From Fragilaria crotonensis (Eukaryota > Bacillariophyta > Fragilariophyceae > Fragilariales > Fragilariaceae), in the NCBI GenBank assembly GCA_022925895.1, contig JAKSYS010000548.1:1-42412 (forward strand): DNA of 42,412 bases, written 5' to 3'. The notes under the pieces were generated by a model. It was not told the origin of the DNA and made no database searches. It saw only the letters and a program-made list of their open reading frames with translations. Positions within the stretch are counted from its first letter, which is position 1. Each line of letters begins with the position of its first letter. Made by a program: the position numbers and the translations under genes. Positions 24,583 through 35,185 of the stretch are shown here, piece after piece.

Positions 24583-25307
24583 TCAACAAAGGTCTTTCCA
24601 TAATGGTTCTTCCATAGGAATCCCAACTTGTTCGTTTTTTCCATCGCCACCCATGGGTGTCAGGTTGGGATACCTGTCATGTAACAGTTGGATGAGCGCT
24701 TCGTAGAGGAGTGTATTACCACTCCCCGACAGATGCAATCCATCGCTGAGATGTTGGCTGTATTCAGAACCATTGCCTCCCAGCAGCTCAAATACATCCA
24801 AAACCTCACAATCGTGCGCTGCGGCTACATCTCGGCAGGCTGAACCATAGTTTCTAGAAACCTCGTTCCGTCGATCCGGCACACGCTTATTTCCCGTTCA
24901 GCCATCCAACGATCTTCGTCGACGGGCGGCGGTGTCAGTAGAATGACTGGGAAACCTTGGTTTTTAATGCATCGGACGATCTTCCCCAGATTGTGTCGAT
25001 ATTCTTCCAGAGGCACATGTTGAGGCTCACCCGGCAATGCTGCATCGTTCGCACCAAGGAAAACAGTACAAAAGAGCACGGGCGCCTTGTCCGTAGTGCC
25101 GTCCTCCACAAAAACGCGAGGCAGCATCTCAAGGGCATGGCGAGTGTTATATCCAGAGAAACCTCGATTCAAGACATCGGCACGACGTGAGTAGGCCGAC
25201 GCAAGCAACGATACCCAACCGACTTGACCATTGACACCGAAACCGAGCTGTGTTAAGGAATCTCCAAAGGTAGCAATGATAGGGCGGATGCTGAGGGGAC
25301 GCACCAT
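24583..25307 (-). CDS. IAH1: IAH1-like GDSL/SGNH esterase (one frame break)
   Basis: Isoamyl acetate-hydrolysing esterase family. From the ATG at 25307 the nucleophile block FGDSLTQ (Ser about 17), the conserved GAND (85-88), and the segment LLTPPPVDEDRW follow in order. The frame breaks near 24882, one base appearing to be missing between the codons for ISV and PDRRNEVSRNYG. It continues to 24583 with the catalytic block DGLHLSG. The restored length, about 241 residues, is normal for the family. The upstream frame stays open into the retrotransposon LTR, but residues encoded there come from the element and are not part of the gene. The element begins only 54 bp upstream of the start codon, so native promoter contact has been lost or displaced by 5.75 kb. 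Confidence 0.82.
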
Positions 25308-25355
25308 CGTCGGATTCAGGGAAAGTGACGACCTCAATTTGGTTGGCCGTTTGGA

Positions 25356-25360
25356 GTTCG
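25356..25360. repeat. Target-site duplication, left copy (GTTCG)
   Basis: GTTCG directly precedes the 5' LTR and is repeated at 31115-31119 after the 3' LTR. Five bases is the usual duplication for Ty1/copia integrases. Confidence 0.9.
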
Positions 25361-25761
25361 TGTTGAACGTCGCGGATGGCGAGCTGTGGACAGACGACGA
25401 GTGGACTGAGATCGCGTACACGACTAAGCGTAATCGGCATGTCGGAATGGCGAACGAGGAGCGATCAATCGGGATCAACAAGCATGAAGGGACCGCCATG
25501 CATGGAACGGTCAAAGACGGCAATGTAATGGATACAGAACATTGCAAATGTGACGGTAACAGCGAGTGCGAATCCATGTGTGATCGCGAATATCGAAAGT
25601 CGAATCAGCGATTGAAATGGGAGATTGAACACATCGATTGATGTGCTCATATTTAATTTAAAATCTGGTTAACGTGACTTCAAACCACTTTAGCAAGTTA
25701 AGACTACAATACTGTTACTTCATAGTACAGTCGTGGCCTATACGAACTAATAGTTTCAACA
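25361..25761 (+). repeat. 5' LTR (401 bp)
   Basis: Its limits are set by identity with 30714-31114 and by the TGTTGAA...TTCAACA ends. It contains TATTTAATTTAAAA at 25650-25663, which may be a TATA-type box or the start of the R region. A frame in the plus sense is open from the LTR start to a TGA at 25639-25641. Confidence 0.95.
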
Positions 25762-25775
25762 TTTTAAATTAAATA
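25762..25775 (+). other. Putative primer-binding site, complementary to the element's own LTR
   Basis: TTTTAAATTAAATA follows the LTR directly, where a primer-binding site is expected. It is the exact reverse complement of TATTTAATTTAAAA at 25650-25663 (and 31003-31016). The match becomes 15 bp if A25761 and T25664 are included. I see no match to a tRNA 3' end. Self-priming is an inference. Confidence 0.5.
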
Positions 25776-25802
25776 CGTAAGAAGCCGATACCAACGTATA
25801 TC

Positions 25803-27227
25803 ATGCCAGAGGAATCGTCGTCGAAGATTGCCGAAGGCGGAGCCGGGACTTCGCAGAAGGAGACCGGAACCGCTACAGGAAAGAAGACAGGAAACGCCAC
25901 CGGGCAACAAGCCAAGGGATTTGCTCCAAGGGCTCCTAAGTTCGAAGGAAAGTCTACCGACCTCAAGGGTCACATCTACGATTGTTCGGACGTCCGCCAG
26001 TCCGACCAATACACCAAGACAACCAAGGAAATTGCCGAGTATGTTGGGAGGACGTACACCTACGGTGGCGATGCCAGGTTGGCCGTCGAAACGCTCACTT
26101 TGCCAACGCTTATCTCACCAACGGACCCTCCCGAGAACGCGAACAGGACCGAAACTCGCATCTGGGAGAAGACCGTTGATGAATACGTGAAGCAGCGCTC
26201 TTACCTTGCAGAAAACATGAAGACACTCTACTCTCTCGTCTGGGGACAATGCACCGACATTATGCGCCAGAAACTTGAGGCACACGAAACGTTTGCAGGA
26301 GTGTCGACCACGGGTGATGGTCTCGGATTGCTCAAGCTGGTGAAGGGGATTGCATTCCAATTCCAGAGCCAGAAATATCTACCCCATGCACTTCATGAAG
26401 CATTGAAGAGATACTACAACTGCTCTCAGGGGAAGTTCGCATCCGCCCAAGCGTACCTCGAACATTTCCAAAACGTGATCGCCGTCGTGACCGAAAGCGG
26501 CGGGTCTATCGCAGGACACGAAGGAATCGAAAACATCATCATCGGCGAAGAAGGCTACGATCGTGAGAGCATGACCGAAGCACAGGCGAACGAAGTCAAG
26601 GATAAAACCACGGCGCGTTCCACGGCCATGGCTTTCCTTCTTGGAAGCGACCGAAGCAGGTACGGGAGGCTCATTGAAGACCTCGAGAACGATTTCCTTC
26701 AAGGCCGCAATCACTATCCAGGTACCGTGTTGGAAGCTTTCAACCTGATCGCAAACTGGAAGCAGGAACGTACTGGATGGCGTGCACCAACCGCCGACGG
26801 CGTGGCATTCGCCAATGTCGACGACAAGCCCAAGACCCCACGCGCCAGTAAGGCCCACATCACCTGTCACAGGTGCAACAAGAAGGGACACTACGCGTCG
26901 GAATGCCCTGAAAAACTCGAGGGAGCAACCGGAGGAGTAACCGGTCCCAAAACCGGAACCGGTGCCAGCACCGGAGCAATGTTGCTCAACGCGGGAATCG
27001 CCAGCGGAGAATTCGATGAACCTGTCGCCCACTTTCAGTTCGTGAACGCATCGAAGGGCGTCTCCTGCCAGATCGGCGAAGATGGTAAACTTCCCAGGAC
27101 CTGGATACTCTCGACAACCAGTCGACAGTGGACGTTTTTTGCAACAGTGACCTTCTCACTGATGTCAGAGAAGACGTCGAATACATGGAAATCCACTGCA
27201 ATGCCGGAGTTGCGAGCACCAACCTGA
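25803..27227 (+). CDS. Retrotransposon Gag with CCHC zinc knuckle, running into protease
   Basis: Starts at the ATG at 25803. The N-terminus is low-complexity (Gly, Thr, Lys), followed by a helical Gag region. A zinc knuckle, CHRCNKKGHYASEC, fits CX2CX4HX4C and would bind the element's RNA. The frame reads to the protease start (TWIL) and then goes off register near 27109; residues after that point do not resemble any protein. One base seems to be missing, as copia elements usually have a single gag-pol frame. A true frameshift between gag and pol is the alternative, though no slippery heptamer is obvious there. Confidence 0.85.
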   Translation: MPEESSSKIAEGGAGTSQKETGTATGKKTGNATGQQAKGFAPRAPKFEGKSTDLKGHIYDCSDVRQSDQYTKTTKEIAEYVGRTYTYGGDARLAVETLTLPTLISPTDPPENANRTETRIWEKTVDEYVKQRSYLAENMKTLYSLVWGQCTDIMRQKLEAHETFAGVSTTGDGLGLLKLVKGIAFQFQSQKYLPHALHEALKRYYNCSQGKFASAQAYLEHFQNVIAVVTESGGSIAGHEGIENIIIGEEGYDRESMTEAQANEVKDKTTARSTAMAFLLGSDRSRYGRLIEDLENDFLQGRNHYPGTVLEAFNLIANWKQERTGWRAPTADGVAFANVDDKPKTPRASKAHITCHRCNKKGHYASECPEKLEGATGGVTGPKTGTGASTGAMLLNAGIASGEFDEPVAHFQFVNASKGVSCQIGEDGKLPRTWILSTTSRQWTFFATVTFSLMSEKTSNTWKSTAMPELRAPT

Positions 27228-29713
27228 TCGGAGACCTCGCAGGATACGGGACCGTCTGGTACCACCCAAACGGTATCGCTAACATACTGTCTCTGTCCAG
27301 GGTCAGAGAACACGGGTACCACGTGACTTATGACAGCAACGGCGGTAACAAATTCCTCGTAAGCAAACCCGATGGGAGCAGCCGAGCATTCCACGAATCC
27401 GAACGCGGACTGTACTTCCTGGATACGAGAGCCAACGGCACCGGGACCATTATGATTAACACCGTCGCCGACAATAAAAACGCATATACGAACCGTGCAT
27501 ATACCCGCGCTGTCCTCGCTCGCAACATCCAGAAAATGATCGGGCGCCCAACGACAAAGGAGTTTGTCAAAATTGTTGAAATGAACCTTCTGCCCAACTG
27601 CCCCGTGACCCGTGAAGACATCCTCATCGCAGAGAAAATCTTCGGACCCGACATCGGTTCTCTGAAAGGAAAGACGGTTCGCCGCGGCACCGACCATGTG
27701 GAAGTATCCGCTACACCCGTGCCGTCGGAACTTATGTCCCAATATCGCAACGTCACTATCGGAGCCGACATCATGTTTGTCAACAAGCTTCCGTTCTTCG
27801 TGACCATATCGCGCAACATCAAATTTGGCACCGCCGTACTCATCACCGACCAAAAACATGAGACTCTGGTCAAGGCCATCCGAGACGTGCTCAACATATA
27901 CAAGAAACGCGGTTTCACCATTGCGACCATGCTAATGGATGGCCAGTTCGAAGGAATCACTGGCGACCTTTCCGAGATGGAAATCACACTCAACACCGTC
28001 GCAAGAGGAGAACACGTACCTGAGGCCGAGCGGTACATTCGCACCATAAAAGAGCGAGCTCGATGCGTATACAACACTATGCCATTCACCAAGATTCCTG
28101 GCAGGATGATTGCCGAGTTGATCTACTATTGTGTATTTTGGCTGAACTCGTTCCCCGGACGCGACGGAGTGTCGACAACTCTCAGCCCACGCGCCATTGT
28201 GACCGGGTCACACATTGATTTTAACAAACACTGCAAGCTCGAGTTCGGTGCCTATGTCCAGGCACACGAAGAGCACGATAACACGATGGCAACCCGGACC
28301 ACCGGAGCCATCGCCCTTCGTCCCACAGGCAACGCCCAAGGCGGCTATTTTCTATATAGCTTGAGCACCGGACGAGTCCTCAACCGCAACAATTGGACTG
28401 CTCTTCCGATGCCACAAGACGTCATTGCCCGTGTGCACACTCTTGCTCGCCGCGCCGCTGCCAACGTGGCCCTTACATTTGCCGACCGCCTCGGAGACAT
28501 CATTCCCGACGAAGATGACGACGACGATGACGACGACGATTACGTTCCCCCTGATGCCGAAGATTACGATAACAATGACGACGAATATCCGTTTGATGAC
28601 GACGATGATGCTCCAGATGACCCTGTACACATCGCAGGAGTGGAGGGTTATTACCCACCAAACGTTCAATTACCAATCGGAGCCCTCGCTATCGAAGTCG
28701 ACGAAGCCGAACCTGAAACCGACAAAGCCGAACCTGAAACCGAAAGCGAGAACGAAGCTGTTATCGAGGCCGAACCTGAACCCGAGCACCTAAACGAACC
28801 CCCAATGAACAACAACCGCGACTATGAGGCGGCAGAACCTGGAAACTTCGACCCTGCTGATGATGACGTAGAAGAAAACAACGAGATCGCTACAGCTCCC
28901 GACATCGCCGAACCACTTGTCGAGGATGCGTTTGGCGGGGATGCACCGCCAGATGAGAACATTGAAACGGCGATGGATCAACAGTACGGTGAGCGTACCG
29001 CAGCATACAATCTACGCCCCCGGAAACCCAGGGACTACGGACACATGCACGCCACGCTAGAGCACACCATGATGACCCAATTCAGTATGAAAAGGGGCAT
29101 CAAGGAGTTTGGAGACGCTGGGGTCGACGCAGTCCTGAGCGAACTACAACAGTTGCACGATCGGAAGGTGCTGCAACCAACGTCGGCAAACGAGCTCACT
29201 AGAGAGGAGAAACGGGCAGCATTGCACTATCTAATGTTCCTAAAGAAAAAACGGTGTGGTCGAATCAAAGGTAGAGGATGCGCCGATGGGAGGAAACAAA
29301 GACTTCATACCAACAAAGAAGACGCTAGCTCCCCCACCGTCGCAATCGAAGCGGTCATGCTATCATGTGTCATCGATGCCCACGAGCGCCGCGATGCAGC
29401 CACCGTGGACATACCAGGAGCGTTCATGCAAGCCGACATGGATGAGCTTGTGCATATGCGACTTGACGGGAAAATGGCAGAACTACTGATGCAAGTCGAC
29501 CCTGAACTGTACCAGCCATACGTCGTATACGAAAATGGTAAGCCGGTGCTGTACGTCATCCTGAAAAAGGCTCTATACGGTACGCTCCGAGCTGCTCTTC
29601 TCTTCTGGCGGAGGCTGTCGAATCAGCTCATCAAATGGGGATTCAAACTGAACCCATATGATCCTTGTGTGGCCAACAAGATCATTAATGGGAAACAATG
29701 CACCATCCTATGA
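27110..29713 (+). CDS. Retrotransposon Pol, first part: protease, integrase and N-terminal reverse transcriptase
   Basis: The frame takes over from Gag at the protease (LDNQSTVDVF, with the likely catalytic Asp). Next comes the integrase core: GADIMFVNKLPF, then LMDGQFEG, then the acidic residue in EHVPEAERYIRTIKERAR. A linker full of Asp and Glu follows (about 28508-28930), with the repeat AEPET. The RT begins after RPRKPRDYG-like sequence, with VDIPGAFMQADM and KKALYGTLRAALLF as fingers and palm landmarks. The frame ends at TGA 29711-29713, just before the catalytic HVDD motif. The codon probably was TGG (Trp). As it stands, the enzyme cannot be made intact from this copy. Confidence 0.9.
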   Translation, partial: LDNQSTVDVFCNSDLLTDVREDVEYMEIHCNAGVASTNLIGDLAGYGTVWYHPNGIANILSLSRVREHGYHVTYDSNGGNKFLVSKPDGSSRAFHESERGLYFLDTRANGTGTIMINTVADNKNAYTNRAYTRAVLARNIQKMIGRPTTKEFVKIVEMNLLPNCPVTREDILIAEKIFGPDIGSLKGKTVRRGTDHVEVSATPVPSELMSQYRNVTIGADIMFVNKLPFFVTISRNIKFGTAVLITDQKHETLVKAIRDVLNIYKKRGFTIATMLMDGQFEGITGDLSEMEITLNTVARGEHVPEAERYIRTIKERARCVYNTMPFTKIPGRMIAELIYYCVFWLNSFPGRDGVSTTLSPRAIVTGSHIDFNKHCKLEFGAYVQAHEEHDNTMATRTTGAIALRPTGNAQGGYFLYSLSTGRVLNRNNWTALPMPQDVIARVHTLARRAAANVALTFADRLGDIIPDEDDDDDDDDDYVPPDAEDYDNNDDEYPFDDDDDAPDDPVHIAGVEGYYPPNVQLPIGALAIEVDEAEPETDKAEPETESENEAVIEAEPEPEHLNEPPMNNNRDYEAAEPGNFDPADDDVEENNEIATAPDIAEPLVEDAFGGDAPPDENIETAMDQQYGERTAAYNLRPRKPRDYGHMHATLEHTMMTQFSMKRGIKEFGDAGVDAVLSELQQLHDRKVLQPTSANELTREEKRAALHYLMFLKKKRCGRIKGRGCADGRKQRLHTNKEDASSPTVAIEAVMLSCVIDAHERRDAATVDIPGAFMQADMDELVHMRLDGKMAELLMQVDPELYQPYVVYENGKPVLYVILKKALYGTLRAALLFWRRLSNQLIKWGFKLNPYDPCVANKIINGKQCTIL

Positions 29714-29716
29714 CAC

Positions 29717-30994
29717 GTGGATGATCTGAAGATCTCCCATGTGGATCCTGAGGTGGTAACGAGTGTCATCGACATGATTGAATCGGAGTTTGGGAAGGAG
29801 GCACCTCTGACGAAGACCCGCGGGAAGGTGCACGAGTACCTTGGAATAACTATTGATTTCTCCACTGACGGAAAGGTCCGGTTCTCGATGGTCGACTACG
29901 TGCAAGGTATGCTCGATGACCTCCCGGACGATATGCGTGGAGAATGCGCTACGCCCGCATCAAACTTCCTGTTCGATGTCGATGCAGATTGTGAAAAGTT
30001 GGATCCCGAAACTTCCGAACTCTTCCATCACAACACGGCCAAGTTACTGTTTCTCTGTAAACGGGCAAGGCCGGACATTCAAACAGCCGTTGCCTTCCTC
30101 TGCACCAGAGTGAAGGGGCCCGATACTGATGACTACAAAAAGCTCACTCGGGTGATGAAATATTTGCGATCAACCCTTGCGATGCCGTTAACCTTGGAGG
30201 CCGATGGAAGCAACGTGATCAAGTGGTGGGCAGACGCATCGTATGCGGTCCACCCGGACATGCGGAGCCACACCGGCGGCGTCCTATCTCTTGGGAAGGG
30301 GGCAGTGTACGGTACATCATGTCGCCAAAAGCTTGGAACCAAGAGTTCAACTGAGGCTGAGCTCGTTGGCGTGAGCGATATACTCCCGCAAGTCATTTGG
30401 ACTCGTTATTTCTTGGAGGCACAAGGATACAAGGTGAACGAATCCGTGGTTTATCAGGACAACCAAAGTGCCATCCTGTTGGAGAAAAACGGTCGGGCAT
30501 CGAGCAGTAAGAGGACTCGCCACATTAATATCCGCTACTTCTTCATCGCGGACCGCGTCGCCAACGGCGAGGTTCACATTGAGTACTGTCCAACCAAGGT
30601 CATGTTGGCTGACTACTTCACCAAACCACTTCAAGGCCTGCAGTTCAAAACCTTCCGCGACCAAATAATGAATATTAATCCTGAAGCGGATCCCATTCAG
30701 GATTACAGGAGTGTGTTGAACGTCGCGGATGGCGAGCTGTGGACAGACGACGAGTGGACTGAGATCGCGTACACGACTAAGCGTAATCGGCATGTCGGAA
30801 TGGCGAACGAGGAGCGATCAATCGGGATCAACAAGCATGAAGGGACCGCCATGCATGGAACGGTCAAAGACGGCAATGTAATGGATACAGAACATTGCAA
30901 ATGTGACGGTAACAGCGAGTGCGAATCCATGTGTGATCGCGAATATCGAAAGTCGAATCAGCGATTGAAATGGGAGATTGAACACATCGATTGA
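29717..30994 (+). CDS. Retrotransposon Pol, second part: reverse transcriptase catalytic motif and RNase H, extending into the 3' LTR
   Basis: In the same frame as the preceding segment after the TGA. It begins at the RT catalytic motif (HVDDLKISH) and continues to RNase H, with landmarks WWADASYAVH, STEAELVGVSD and QDNQSAILL. The copia RNase H end HINIRYFFIADRVANGE is followed by LADYFTKPLQG. The frame then enters the 3' LTR at 30714 and adds 93 codons before TGA at 30992-30994, 8 nt short of the TATTTAATTTAAAA site. The C-terminal extension therefore occupies nearly all of the presumed U3. Neither its expression nor its role is known. Confidence 0.88.
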   Translation: MDDLKISHVDPEVVTSVIDMIESEFGKEAPLTKTRGKVHEYLGITIDFSTDGKVRFSMVDYVQGMLDDLPDDMRGECATPASNFLFDVDADCEKLDPETSELFHHNTAKLLFLCKRARPDIQTAVAFLCTRVKGPDTDDYKKLTRVMKYLRSTLAMPLTLEADGSNVIKWWADASYAVHPDMRSHTGGVLSLGKGAVYGTSCRQKLGTKSSTEAELVGVSDILPQVIWTRYFLEAQGYKVNESVVYQDNQSAILLEKNGRASSSKRTRHINIRYFFIADRVANGEVHIEYCPTKVMLADYFTKPLQGLQFKTFRDQIMNINPEADPIQDYRSVLNVADGELWTDDEWTEIAYTTKRNRHVGMANEERSIGINKHEGTAMHGTVKDGNVMDTEHCKCDGNSECESMCDREYRKSNQRLKWEIEHID

Positions 30995-31114
30995 TGTGCT
31001 CATATTTAATTTAAAATCTGGTTAACGTGACTTCAAACCACTTTAGCAAGTTAAGACTACAATACTGTTACTTCATAGTACAGTCGTGGCCTATACGAAC
31101 TAATAGTTTCAACA
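30714..31114 (+). repeat. 3' LTR (401 bp)
   Basis: Identical by eye to 25361-25761. The purine tract before it is poor (AGGATTACAGGAG around 30699-30711), so plus-strand priming is not obvious. GTTCG follows at 31115-31119. Confidence 0.95.
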
Positions 31115-31119
31115 GTTCG
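31115..31119. repeat. Target-site duplication, right copy (GTTCG)
   Basis: Matches 25356-25360. Removing the element and one copy restores a continuous spacer of about 430 bp between the IAH1 and NDUFAF3 start codons. Confidence 0.9.
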
Positions 31120-32479: not shown

Positions 32480-35185
32480 CCAAATGCCCATCTTCCCAAC
32501 GCACTGAGTCACCAAAGGATCATCCTGACACTTGGAACGAGGAAGGGCACGCGATGCCTTCAAGTCCGCACGAAGGAGATCGCGTTCTTTCTTCAGGCTC
32601 GCTATCTCGCGCCTTTGAGTTTTCAAAACTACACGCTGACGTTCCAGGGCCGCATCAAGCTGGATTACAGCCTCTCGAAGCATTTGGAACTCCTCCTGAC
32701 TCGGAACGAGATCACGTTCCGAATTGGGAGGCGCCACGCGAGTTTCCACCTCAGTCACCTCGTGACGCAGAGTGAGCTCCTCCTGACTCGGAACGAGCTC
32801 ACGTGAAGAATTGGGAGGCACTTTGGTCGTTTCCACCTCTGTTATCTGACGTGCACTTTGCGAGATGCCCTCATCATTGGGGGGCGGACATGCAAGATCC
32901 TCCACTCTCATCCACACAACAAGGGTGGTGTTGGCGTTGGTGTCGCTCTCAAGCTCGTCAGAATCATTTTTGTCTTCTTTTGAGCATTTCGAAGTATCAG
33001 CTCCCATTCTCTGCATCTGAGCTTCCACCTGCCTCTCAAACAACCGAATCGAGTCAAACTCTAAAACCGCATCACAGGAGCTTGAATCGGACACATCAAT
33101 ATCTTCGTCTGGCAGCGTCGCATTGCGTTCAATGGGGGAAGGTGACTCAGTCTCGATTTCATTCGCATGCTCCGTGGGAGGGTGTCCGTTGTTTCTTCCC
33201 ACTGTTTGGTCTGTTACTGTAGGTGGAATATCCGGGACATGCATGTCATCGTTGGTAGCAATCGCAGTCGATGGCTCTGTTTCGGCTTTTGAATACGAGT
33301 TAGACCTCAAAACCGAAACCATTTGGTCGCTGTCGTCAGAAACAGGTAATTCGGATTTGAGAATAGGAGATGGCATTTTCTCGTTCGAGCCAGAGCTAGA
33401 ATCCATCGCAGTTTGAACTGTTGGAAACCCTTCTTCGTTCAAACCAATAGGAGATGGCATTTTCTCGTTCGAGTCGGAATCCATTGCAGTTTGAACGGTT
33501 GGAAACCCTTCTTCAAACAAACCGGGTGGTCGGTTTTCAACAAAATCTAGTGGTGCAACAGGAGTGTAGTACGAGTAGACTTTCTGAACAGGTTTGTGAC
33601 TGATGCTGGTTGGCGACACAGTGATCTGTGCAATGTCCTTGGTTTCCTGCATAGGAGACGGAACAGTAGTTGCTTTGCCTGTGTTCGAACCAAGGTCAGT
33701 CAAAGTTACTCCCGCTTGCGGGTTGGTGATGGACGGAAGGGGAGGTAGGTCACGCTTTGACAAGTTGCTGGCTGGATCAGAAACGTCAGAGCGGTTTTCT
33801 TCCGCCGACTTGGCGGATGGTGATGAATTGCGGGTCACAGCATCATTCCTAACATAAGATCGTAGTCGGAACCTCCTTGCTCGAACCGCCGGCATCACGT
33901 TGATTTTTCTTGATTCAGCTGGTTTCTTCTTAAGAGGATTTGTAGGTCTGGGAGGACTTGGGACATTTGGGGTCTCCTGAAATGTTTTAAACGGTTTATT
34001 GCCATTGCTGACGTCAAAGCTGTCGACGGAACTCTCATTTCTTGATTTCTCACTGGCGGCCATGTCTCCTCTACTACTAAAACTCAGGCTCGAATTATTC
34101 AGATGTATCTGGTGAAGATTCAGGTCAAAGTCTCCGTCCGAGTTTAAACTTCGCTCAAAGGTAGGTAGTATCTTGGCGTCCTTGATGGAGGAACTCATGA
34201 GGATAGAATCACGCGATGAACCGTATGAGTCAAAATCTTCCATATTGACGTCTGGGTCATCATTGATGTTCTTGCCACCGATGAACTCCTCCACTAGGGC
34301 GTCGGCGTCAACCGAACTTCCTGTCATCGACGTATTTGTCCCAGTGAGACTTGACGGTAGGTACAGCCCATGATGCATATCGATCGTATCGGCTACTCCT
34401 CCATTTTCAGACATTGAGGAAGTGGTTGGGTGCGAGGCCTCCTCGGCTAGCACGCAGGGCGTTTCGTGCTCTGATATATCTGAAACCTGCGCAGAGATAC
34501 TCGTGCTCGGCACATTGTCCGAAAGAAAACTTGGTTGTTCTTTTGTAAAGAAATTGGACTCTAGATGCGTGTTCGACAGAACGGTTGGTTGCAAGGTCAG
34601 CGACGCAGACGACAATAATGGAGAGAGATGGTGGACTCTTCGAGGTGGATCAGACACAATTGGCTTGGAATTCTCTTTGCCAAACGAATTTGCTTGTTCA
34701 TCATCCGAGTCTTCTCGAGCCCGATGCACTACGATGGCGTCTGTCGGCAACACACCATTAGCTGACATCAATGGATCTGCCAAGGATTGTTCCGTCCGTG
34801 GATCGTTCGATGCATTGGGAGGCGTAGCAGCGAAATTTGTAAATGAAGAGGCGTCATAGTTGACAGGCAACGAAGGCGATTGTCTTGCTAATTCTGGACC
34901 GTCGTTCAAGATATTGCTCGGCTTCCCAACACCACCTTGTTGCCAGAGTGGGGGGCGGTTATTCTGATTCTTGAAGTCGCCCCGTACGCCGAGCGCTGTC
35001 TCCTTGTTTGGAGTCCCTGCAGGTGAGGAACGATAAAGCATTCGACGAATCTTGGCGGCATCGCTGCGACGTCTGGCTCTTCGTGGAGTATCGATCAGGT
35101 CAACCAACGCATCGTCATGAGCGGTGTCTATAACAAGACCCCTCATTTTGCTATTGCCTCCGTGACCATCTAACTGAAACTCCAT
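32444..35185 (-). CDS. Long disordered protein with C-terminal coiled coil, unknown function
   Basis: A 913-residue frame from the ATG at 35185. The N-terminus has a basic patch (PRRARRRSDAAKIRRMLYR) that could act as a nuclear signal. Most of the protein is disordered and rich in Ser, Asp and Pro. Two internal duplications are visible: EEGFPTVQTAMDS...NEKMPSP (coded around 33363-33512) and a 29-residue unit of the form TEVET..PPNS.R.LVPSQEE (32690-32850). Near the C-terminus about 60 residues (LDAALERQRVVLKTQRREI and the following heptads) predict a coiled coil. No known domain is recognised. The last residues are encoded by a unit of the 64-bp repeat, so the C-terminus may be recent. Divergent from the TPR gene. 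Confidence 0.65.
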   Translation of the reverse strand: MEFQLDGHGGNSKMRGLVIDTAHDDALVDLIDTPRRARRRSDAAKIRRMLYRSSPAGTPNKETALGVRGDFKNQNNRPPLWQQGGVGKPSNILNDGPELARQSPSLPVNYDASSFTNFAATPPNASNDPRTEQSLADPLMSANGVLPTDAIVVHRAREDSDDEQANSFGKENSKPIVSDPPRRVHHLSPLLSSASLTLQPTVLSNTHLESNFFTKEQPSFLSDNVPSTSISAQVSDISEHETPCVLAEEASHPTTSSMSENGGVADTIDMHHGLYLPSSLTGTNTSMTGSSVDADALVEEFIGGKNINDDPDVNMEDFDSYGSSRDSILMSSSIKDAKILPTFERSLNSDGDFDLNLHQIHLNNSSLSFSSRGDMAASEKSRNESSVDSFDVSNGNKPFKTFQETPNVPSPPRPTNPLKKKPAESRKINVMPAVRARRFRLRSYVRNDAVTRNSSPSAKSAEENRSDVSDPASNLSKRDLPPLPSITNPQAGVTLTDLGSNTGKATTVPSPMQETKDIAQITVSPTSISHKPVQKVYSYYTPVAPLDFVENRPPGLFEEGFPTVQTAMDSDSNEKMPSPIGLNEEGFPTVQTAMDSSSGSNEKMPSPILKSELPVSDDSDQMVSVLRSNSYSKAETEPSTAIATNDDMHVPDIPPTVTDQTVGRNNGHPPTEHANEIETESPSPIERNATLPDEDIDVSDSSSCDAVLEFDSIRLFERQVEAQMQRMGADTSKCSKEDKNDSDELESDTNANTTLVVWMRVEDLACPPPNDEGISQSARQITEVETTKVPPNSSRELVPSQEELTLRHEVTEVETRVAPPNSERDLVPSQEEFQMLREAVIQLDAALERQRVVLKTQRREIASLKKERDLLRADLKASRALPRSKCQDDPLVTQCVGKMGIWSSHFSSSLKCE

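Follow-up and report, generated by a model that had tools for sequence, protein, structure and literature searches.

A copia-type retrotransposon in a 42,412-nt stretch of Fragilaria crotonensis DNA (the window) very probably primes its own reverse transcription in a Tf1-like manner, judging from a comparison with its relatives in the same genome. Self-priming of this kind had been suggested from the letters of the window alone (the sequence-only reading), and is now supported by 19 covarying site pairs and by the lack of a tRNA match among the 20 genes compared. The proposal builds on the observed complementarity, its geometry, its covariation and its TCA context, together with the absence of a fit in the tRNA genes compared.

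The 14 nt directly following the 5′ LTR (25762–25775, plus strand; TTTTAAATTAAATA) form the putative self-primer-binding site (PBS) and are the exact reverse complement of TATTTAATTTAAAA at 25650–25663 (plus strand) inside the LTR, the proposed self-primer, first 14 nt of the RNA and start of R. Re-reading the sequence confirmed this match as well as the adjoining A/T pair that had been said to extend it to 15, with T25664 (plus strand) pairing with the LTR-terminal A25761. The position of T25664, proposed as the first past the primer cut, is a T in 19/19 distinct sites. From the start of the site to the LTR end, the proposed R-U5 (25650–25761, plus strand) measures 112 nt, the length that had been estimated for a start at 25650, and the corresponding distance in relatives is 109–147 nt. 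A TCA at 25647–25649 (plus strand), fitting the Inr-like motif TCAH(+1)W, lies immediately 5′ of the site, and an identical copy of the self-primer occupies the start of the 3′ R at 31003–31016 (plus strand). The 14-mer was absent from all 20,000 first-order Markov shuffles of each of five elements (LTR, or up to 420 nt before the LTR end).

The element spans 5,754 bp (25361–31114, plus strand) and is a Ty1/copia-type LTR retrotransposon with identical LTRs, a 5-bp target site duplication, GTTCG (25356–25360 and 31115–31119, plus strand), and a zinc knuckle in gag. The raw repeat covers 402 nt (25360–25761 and 30713–31114); as 25360 belongs to the target duplication, the LTRs are 401 nt each, the 5′ LTR at 25361–25761 (TGTTGAA...TTCAACA, with TG...CA ends) and its copy, without differences, at 30714–31114 (both plus strand). 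The gag reading frame (25803–27227, plus strand; zinc knuckle at residues 353–370) differs in frame from the pol open frame (27089–30994, plus strand), which holds one in-frame TGA at 29711–29713 and whose terminal part, 30714–30994, lies within the 3′ LTR. The frame difference and the TGA make this copy look disabled, and the identical LTRs indicate that it is young. RVT_2, which we take to be the copia-type reverse transcriptase (RT) model, matches the window element at 30.3 bits, slightly below the 31.6 cut-off, and the close relative C685, 88% identical over the C-terminal RT/RNase H segment, at 60.7 bits against the same cut-off; in the relative C196 the match is 28.2 bits, below the cut-off and over a partial stretch only. 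By RVT_2 homology, the window element is assigned to the Ty1/copia superfamily.

Several further features of the coding region were observed. C685 carries a single open frame of 1,707 codons, and the window copy has gag and pol in separate frames (27089–27227) plus the in-frame TGA (29711–29713). The pol frame extends into the 3′ LTR by ~92 codons (30714–30994) and ends 8 nt short of the primer copy. An LTR-encoded pol tail of 63–94 codons is present in 34 of 38 elements inspected (exceptions C870a, C44a, C120 and C13), so U3 looks partly coding. In the region 24825–25361, a minus-strand frame with a GDSL-type motif (GDSLTQLGFG) has its ATG at 25307, and the element lies ~53 bp upstream of this ATG, in the likely promoter of that frame. 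Two tandem 87-nt repeats, 76% alike, lie at 32671–32844 inside a long minus-strand frame.

The attribution of the element to a diatom, made earlier from the sequence, is backed by silicon transporters and PsaL, which were used as host markers since the best matches of light-harvesting proteins are mixed and not decisive. Silicon transporters give 19 matches in the genome, 18 of them above the cut-off, and one open frame of 1,456 codons (G000:C97:29749-33762) contains three silicon transporter domain matches. The four best PsaL matches, 8xls, 8zeh, 6l4u and 6ly5, which we take to be diatom structures, score 255–275 bits, followed by the next at 204 bits; the molecule names of their sister chains (fucoxanthin chlorophyll proteins, Tp-Lhcr20) partly support this.

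A search of the genome with the LTR returned nine places, two of them within the window element. The survey of 60 copia junctions comprises the window, C685, C218a and 57 elements hand-picked from the pol and gag search lists; the remaining hits of these lists, mostly fragmentary, lie outside the 60, as do L003, L004 and L005 (C318, C35 and C214), for which no second LTR or only a short LTR piece was found. For 36 elements, alignment of the 5′ end with the 3′ end fixed the LTR limits, and in a second set of 21 junctions, where no 3′ LTR was compared, the junction was located through the match itself beside CA. In 51 of the 60 junctions the 13–14 nt after the LTR exactly complement a site in the element's own 5′ LTR, 109–147 nt upstream (34/39 in the first set and 17/21 in the second). 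An exact match was the criterion for these 51. C220 and C603 have a damaged 5′ LTR and match their 3′ LTR only, exactly, and 7/60 junctions have no exact match to either LTR. Near-misses are C23 (13/14), C560 (12/14) and C218b (12/14, against the 5′ LTR only); C537 is decayed, and no junction was found in C398, C828 and C568. In 10 of 36 elements the two LTRs agree at every position of the aligned stretch, indicating that the lineage moved recently. No relative was confirmed in viral_contigs, which was scanned once using the window protein and once using a 16-row alignment.

The 51 exact junctions contain 19 distinct site/PBS pairs, several with G and C, whose site sequences span TATTTAATTTAAAA through TTCTCTCGAAACAA, CTTTCTCGCAACAA, TTCTCGCGAAACAA, TACTTTACTAAAAC and CAATCTCAATTAAC. 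In C685 and C218a the LTR site is one base shorter and the post-LTR partner is likewise one base shorter at the corresponding place, a difference in length that is compensated on the other side. The first set contributes 14 distinct 14-nt pairs, taken on the criterion that the partner follows, and 13 of 14 positions in them are variable. When each PBS of these 14 pairs is compared with the LTRs of the other families, none of 182 comparisons is exact, with a mean of 9.3/14 and a top value of 13. Independent families, with 51 of 60 junctions each having its own exact match, are a stronger test than the shuffles.

The pairs were placed on an RT tree of the C-terminal RT/RNase H segment. This tree has 21 elements, holds 21 of the 22 self-priming rows (C685 was omitted owing to its 13-nt site) and includes the near-misses C23 and C560. 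Parsimony on this tree counts 38 changes of the LTR site, 41 of the PBS and 41 of the pair, so that the LTR site never changes without the PBS; the three PBS changes left without a counterpart are located in C23 and C560. Covariation in related elements had been named beforehand as a check, and complementarity is indeed kept there through 19 distinct pairs, with 38/38 site changes matched. In the RT trees, groups B and C each form a supported clade on a long branch, and group A, which includes the window element, comprises the rest without resolution; exact pairs are present in all three. Group membership follows the RT tree where a row was included and otherwise a judgment by eye from the LTR and post-LTR sequence.

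In the group B alignment, sliding the helix by 1–3 columns lowers pairing from 100% to 46–55%, and the covariation score, 0.314 in register, then reaches no more than 0.132. Nine of 15 pairs show changes in both partners, and the remaining six are invariant. Four of five measures lie above all 500 shuffles; the number of further pair types, 10 against a shuffle mean of 10.7, does not. The rows of this alignment (A3) were picked for an exact match, so its 100% pairing is by selection and only two-sided changes are informative.

In every exact case the complement starts at the first post-LTR base, which would place the primer 3′ end at the LTR end. TCA stands directly 5′ of the site in 41 of 51 exact junctions (20/21 in group A, 15/23 in B and 6/7 in C), and the other ten sites are preceded by GCA (7), TTA (2) or CAT (1). 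TCAH(+1)W has been proposed as an Inr-like diatom motif and occurs in 67.9% of Phaeodactylum tricornutum upstream regions (PMC4686930); the motif is short, so its mere presence says little, but its position here is fixed. With the site directly after TCA, the motif would set +1 at the first base of the site, 25650. According to an oomycete study, the INR+FPR block of oomycetes is lacking in the diatom T. pseudonana (PMC3599244). Taking the first listed row of each distinct site, the complement extends no further upstream in 16 of 19 and by one base in 3; in C827 this one-base extension reaches the TCA. R-U5 measures 109–115 nt in group A, 131–147 nt in group B and 125–129 nt in group C.

Folding predictions recover the helix. 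Of 24 R-U5-PBS stretches picked from among the exact junctions, 23 contain it when the minimum-energy structure is computed without constraints; C59 forms 13/14 pairs and C20 folds without the helix. The primer helix is predicted in both the group A and group B alignments, and the group A alignment adds a further stem that links R-U5 to the LTR end and shows changes on both sides. Neither alignment yields a second flanking duplex or the full three-duplex pretzel structure of Tf1, which is described in PMC10085805.

These features suggest the following priming cycle. Pol II would start at or next to 25650, just past TCA, and the first 14 nt of the RNA would fold back over R-U5 to pair with the 14 nt after the LTR, the terminal LTR base adding one more pair. 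Next, the element's RNase H would cut the RNA after nucleotide 14, and the freed 3′-OH, positioned exactly at the LTR end, would prime the minus strand into U5. Plus-strand synthesis would copy the attached RNA primer back into a new PBS, which may thereby be rewritten in each cycle. A mutation at the start of R would thus reach the PBS in a single cycle, and this would account for the lock-step change of the pairs. The rewriting would likewise account for exact matches at 51 of 60 junctions although the families differ at most positions; since exactness was the criterion for the 51, the weight of this argument lies in the small number of the 60 that do not have it.

Other readings of the match were weighed against this cycle. 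A tRNA or half-tRNA primer bound after the LTR, with the LTR match arising by chance in A/T-rich DNA and TATTTAA serving as a TATA box, has a negligible probability. It gains something from the window motif, which alone is A/T only, and from the scope of the comparison, which covered 20 of 63 listed tRNA genes rather than the whole set. Among these 20, none fits the PBS, the best reaching 7–9 of 12 nt, in keeping with the earlier statement that no match to a tRNA end was seen; no initiator tRNA-Met was recognised among them, and none of the 18 distinct post-LTR sequences in the comparison starts with TGG. A tRNA or half-tRNA primer was rejected for lack of a match in these 20 genes, and a tRNA cannot account for 19 distinct sites that each fit the LTR of their own element. 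Chance A/T matching was rejected by the shuffles (0/20,000 per element) and by the independent families, with several of the 19 pairs containing G and C; covariation already contradicts this reading. The caveat of the sequence-only reading that TATTTAA could be a TATA box falls too, as relatives carry the G/C-containing TTCTCTCGAAACAA or CTTTCTCGCAACAA at the same place within the same flanks, and a TATA box at 25650 was rejected.

A primer released not from the RNA 5′ end but from an internal copy, for example that of the 3′ LTR (31003–31016), in the same RNA or a different one, would still be self-priming and overlaps the main explanation; we give it a small chance. Since the 3′ LTR has the site in identical form, any full RNA includes it there wherever transcription starts, and C220 and C603 match the 3′ LTR only. 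Nothing about an internal source would make the complement end where it does, with the upstream limit kept in 16 of 19 distinct sites and passed by one base in 3, and the complement mostly starts right after TCA, where the diatom motif puts +1 (PMC4686930). A real RNA helix with another job, such as packaging, dimerisation or translation control, while a different primer is used, has a chance that is slightly smaller again. Priming is deduced here from sequence, and in the folds the helix closes the entire R-U5 region; yet it starts at the first post-LTR base, exactly where a primer 3′ end must lie, 0 of 20 compared tRNA genes fit, and no other candidate primer was seen. Very improbable is a feature acting at the DNA level (an integrase site, a recombination scar or a foldback) rather than through RNA. 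Inverted copies could in principle come from gene conversion, but no process acting on DNA is known to us by which such a pair would be maintained, and the exact placement at the LTR end, mostly after TCA, in three groups with a spacing of 109–147 nt, fits an RNA priming cycle, as do the 10 of 36 copies with identical LTR pairs.

Seven distant elements of the same genome, whose LTR pairs were found by self-comparison, served as a control and contain no LTR complement of at least 9 nt. In six of the seven, which represent a distant copia lineage, a perfect 12-nt palindrome, CGTTTATAAACG or CGTTTTAAAACG, directly follows the LTR and is itself followed by ATCAGTT; the two forms differ by a swap of the central two bases that keeps the palindrome. 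The palindromes lie at L084 2152–2163, L085 2010–2021, L086 1316–1327, L087 2212–2223 and L088 2038–2049 on the plus strand and at L089 6871–6882 on the minus strand.

Group-B LTRs (e.g., L133, L134, L053, L136 and L081) hold a third, sense copy of the PBS a few nucleotides upstream of the proposed start; this copy and the primer sequence would fold into a hairpin. A third copy of at least 8 nt is present in 16 of 23 group-B rows and in 0/21 rows of group A and 0/7 of group C; the controls gave 35/11,500 with shuffled upstream sequence and 67/456 with the primer of another family. The third copy changes along with the primer in several group-B families. One tentative joint reading, which we think rather unlikely as a whole, is that diatom copia elements abandoned or never used tRNA priming: the branch comprising groups A, B and C would prime by the RNA 5′ end, the distant lineage by its palindrome (CGTTTATAAACG/CGTTTTAAAACG) as an RNA dimer or hairpin, and the covarying third copy of group B would fold away the primer sequence in the 3′ LTR, leaving the RNA 5′ end as the sole primer. 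If this joint reading is true, tRNA-free priming becomes a candidate ancestral state in one copia branch.

Priming by the element's own RNA 5′ end in a diatom copia lineage would bear on whether tRNA priming arose early or late in LTR elements; an argument that hairpin self-priming may have come first is made in PMC3601003. The case drawn from natural covariation over dozens of elements is strong even in the absence of genetic manipulation, and in practice one would be able to predict from the post-LTR sequence of a family where its transcripts start. One diatom genome paper kept only LTR elements with a recognised primer-binding site (PMC7466962), and pipelines with this requirement may miss such elements. 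Searches of an open-access library yielded no described primer for diatom copia elements and no report of self-priming in them, in keeping with the earlier statement that none was known for copia elements of diatoms. Self-priming in copia elements as such had already been predicted, for TAR elements (PMC6317226), and this plant lineage is the only copia case that we found, as a prediction. CoDi elements are diatom copia elements like those described here, and the main text of the CoDi paper contains 0 matches for primer binding and 0 for tRNA (PMC2806351).

The element in which self-priming was elucidated, Tf1, is of the Ty3/gypsy type and has a primer pairing of 11 nt, unlike the 13–15 nt of the diatom elements. 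Tf1/Tf2 and the Tf1/sushi group, Ty3/gypsy chromoviruses, have a PBS right after the LTR CA that is complementary to the RNA 5′ end and without a tRNA match (PMC10085805), and the diatom elements are alike in the position of the PBS, with pairing to the RNA 5′ end being proposed here and no match among the 20 tRNA genes compared. The RT of Tf1/sushi is of the Ty3/gypsy chromovirus type, whereas that of the diatom elements is copia-type (RVT_2 at 60.7 bits in C685), which places them outside the chromoviruses. Self-priming is described for Tf1/sushi and predicted for the Tcn1 clade and plant TAR copia elements (PMC6317226). Tcn1 elements share the predicted self-priming but are Ty3/gypsy and live in other hosts, and the TAR elements (Houba, Osr-1) belong to the same superfamily as the diatom elements but form a plant lineage, the prediction being given in a passage that mentions no covariation test (PMC6317226). 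Fungal GalEa copia elements are without a tRNA PBS and are placed with CoDi-like elements in one copia branch; they carry a post-LTR palindrome and hairpin, the Conserved Hairpin Site, for which the authors report no U5 complement (PMC5445492). The window element, with its LTR complement, differs from GalEa in this respect, and the palindrome lineage of the F. crotonensis genome resembles GalEa more than the window element does.
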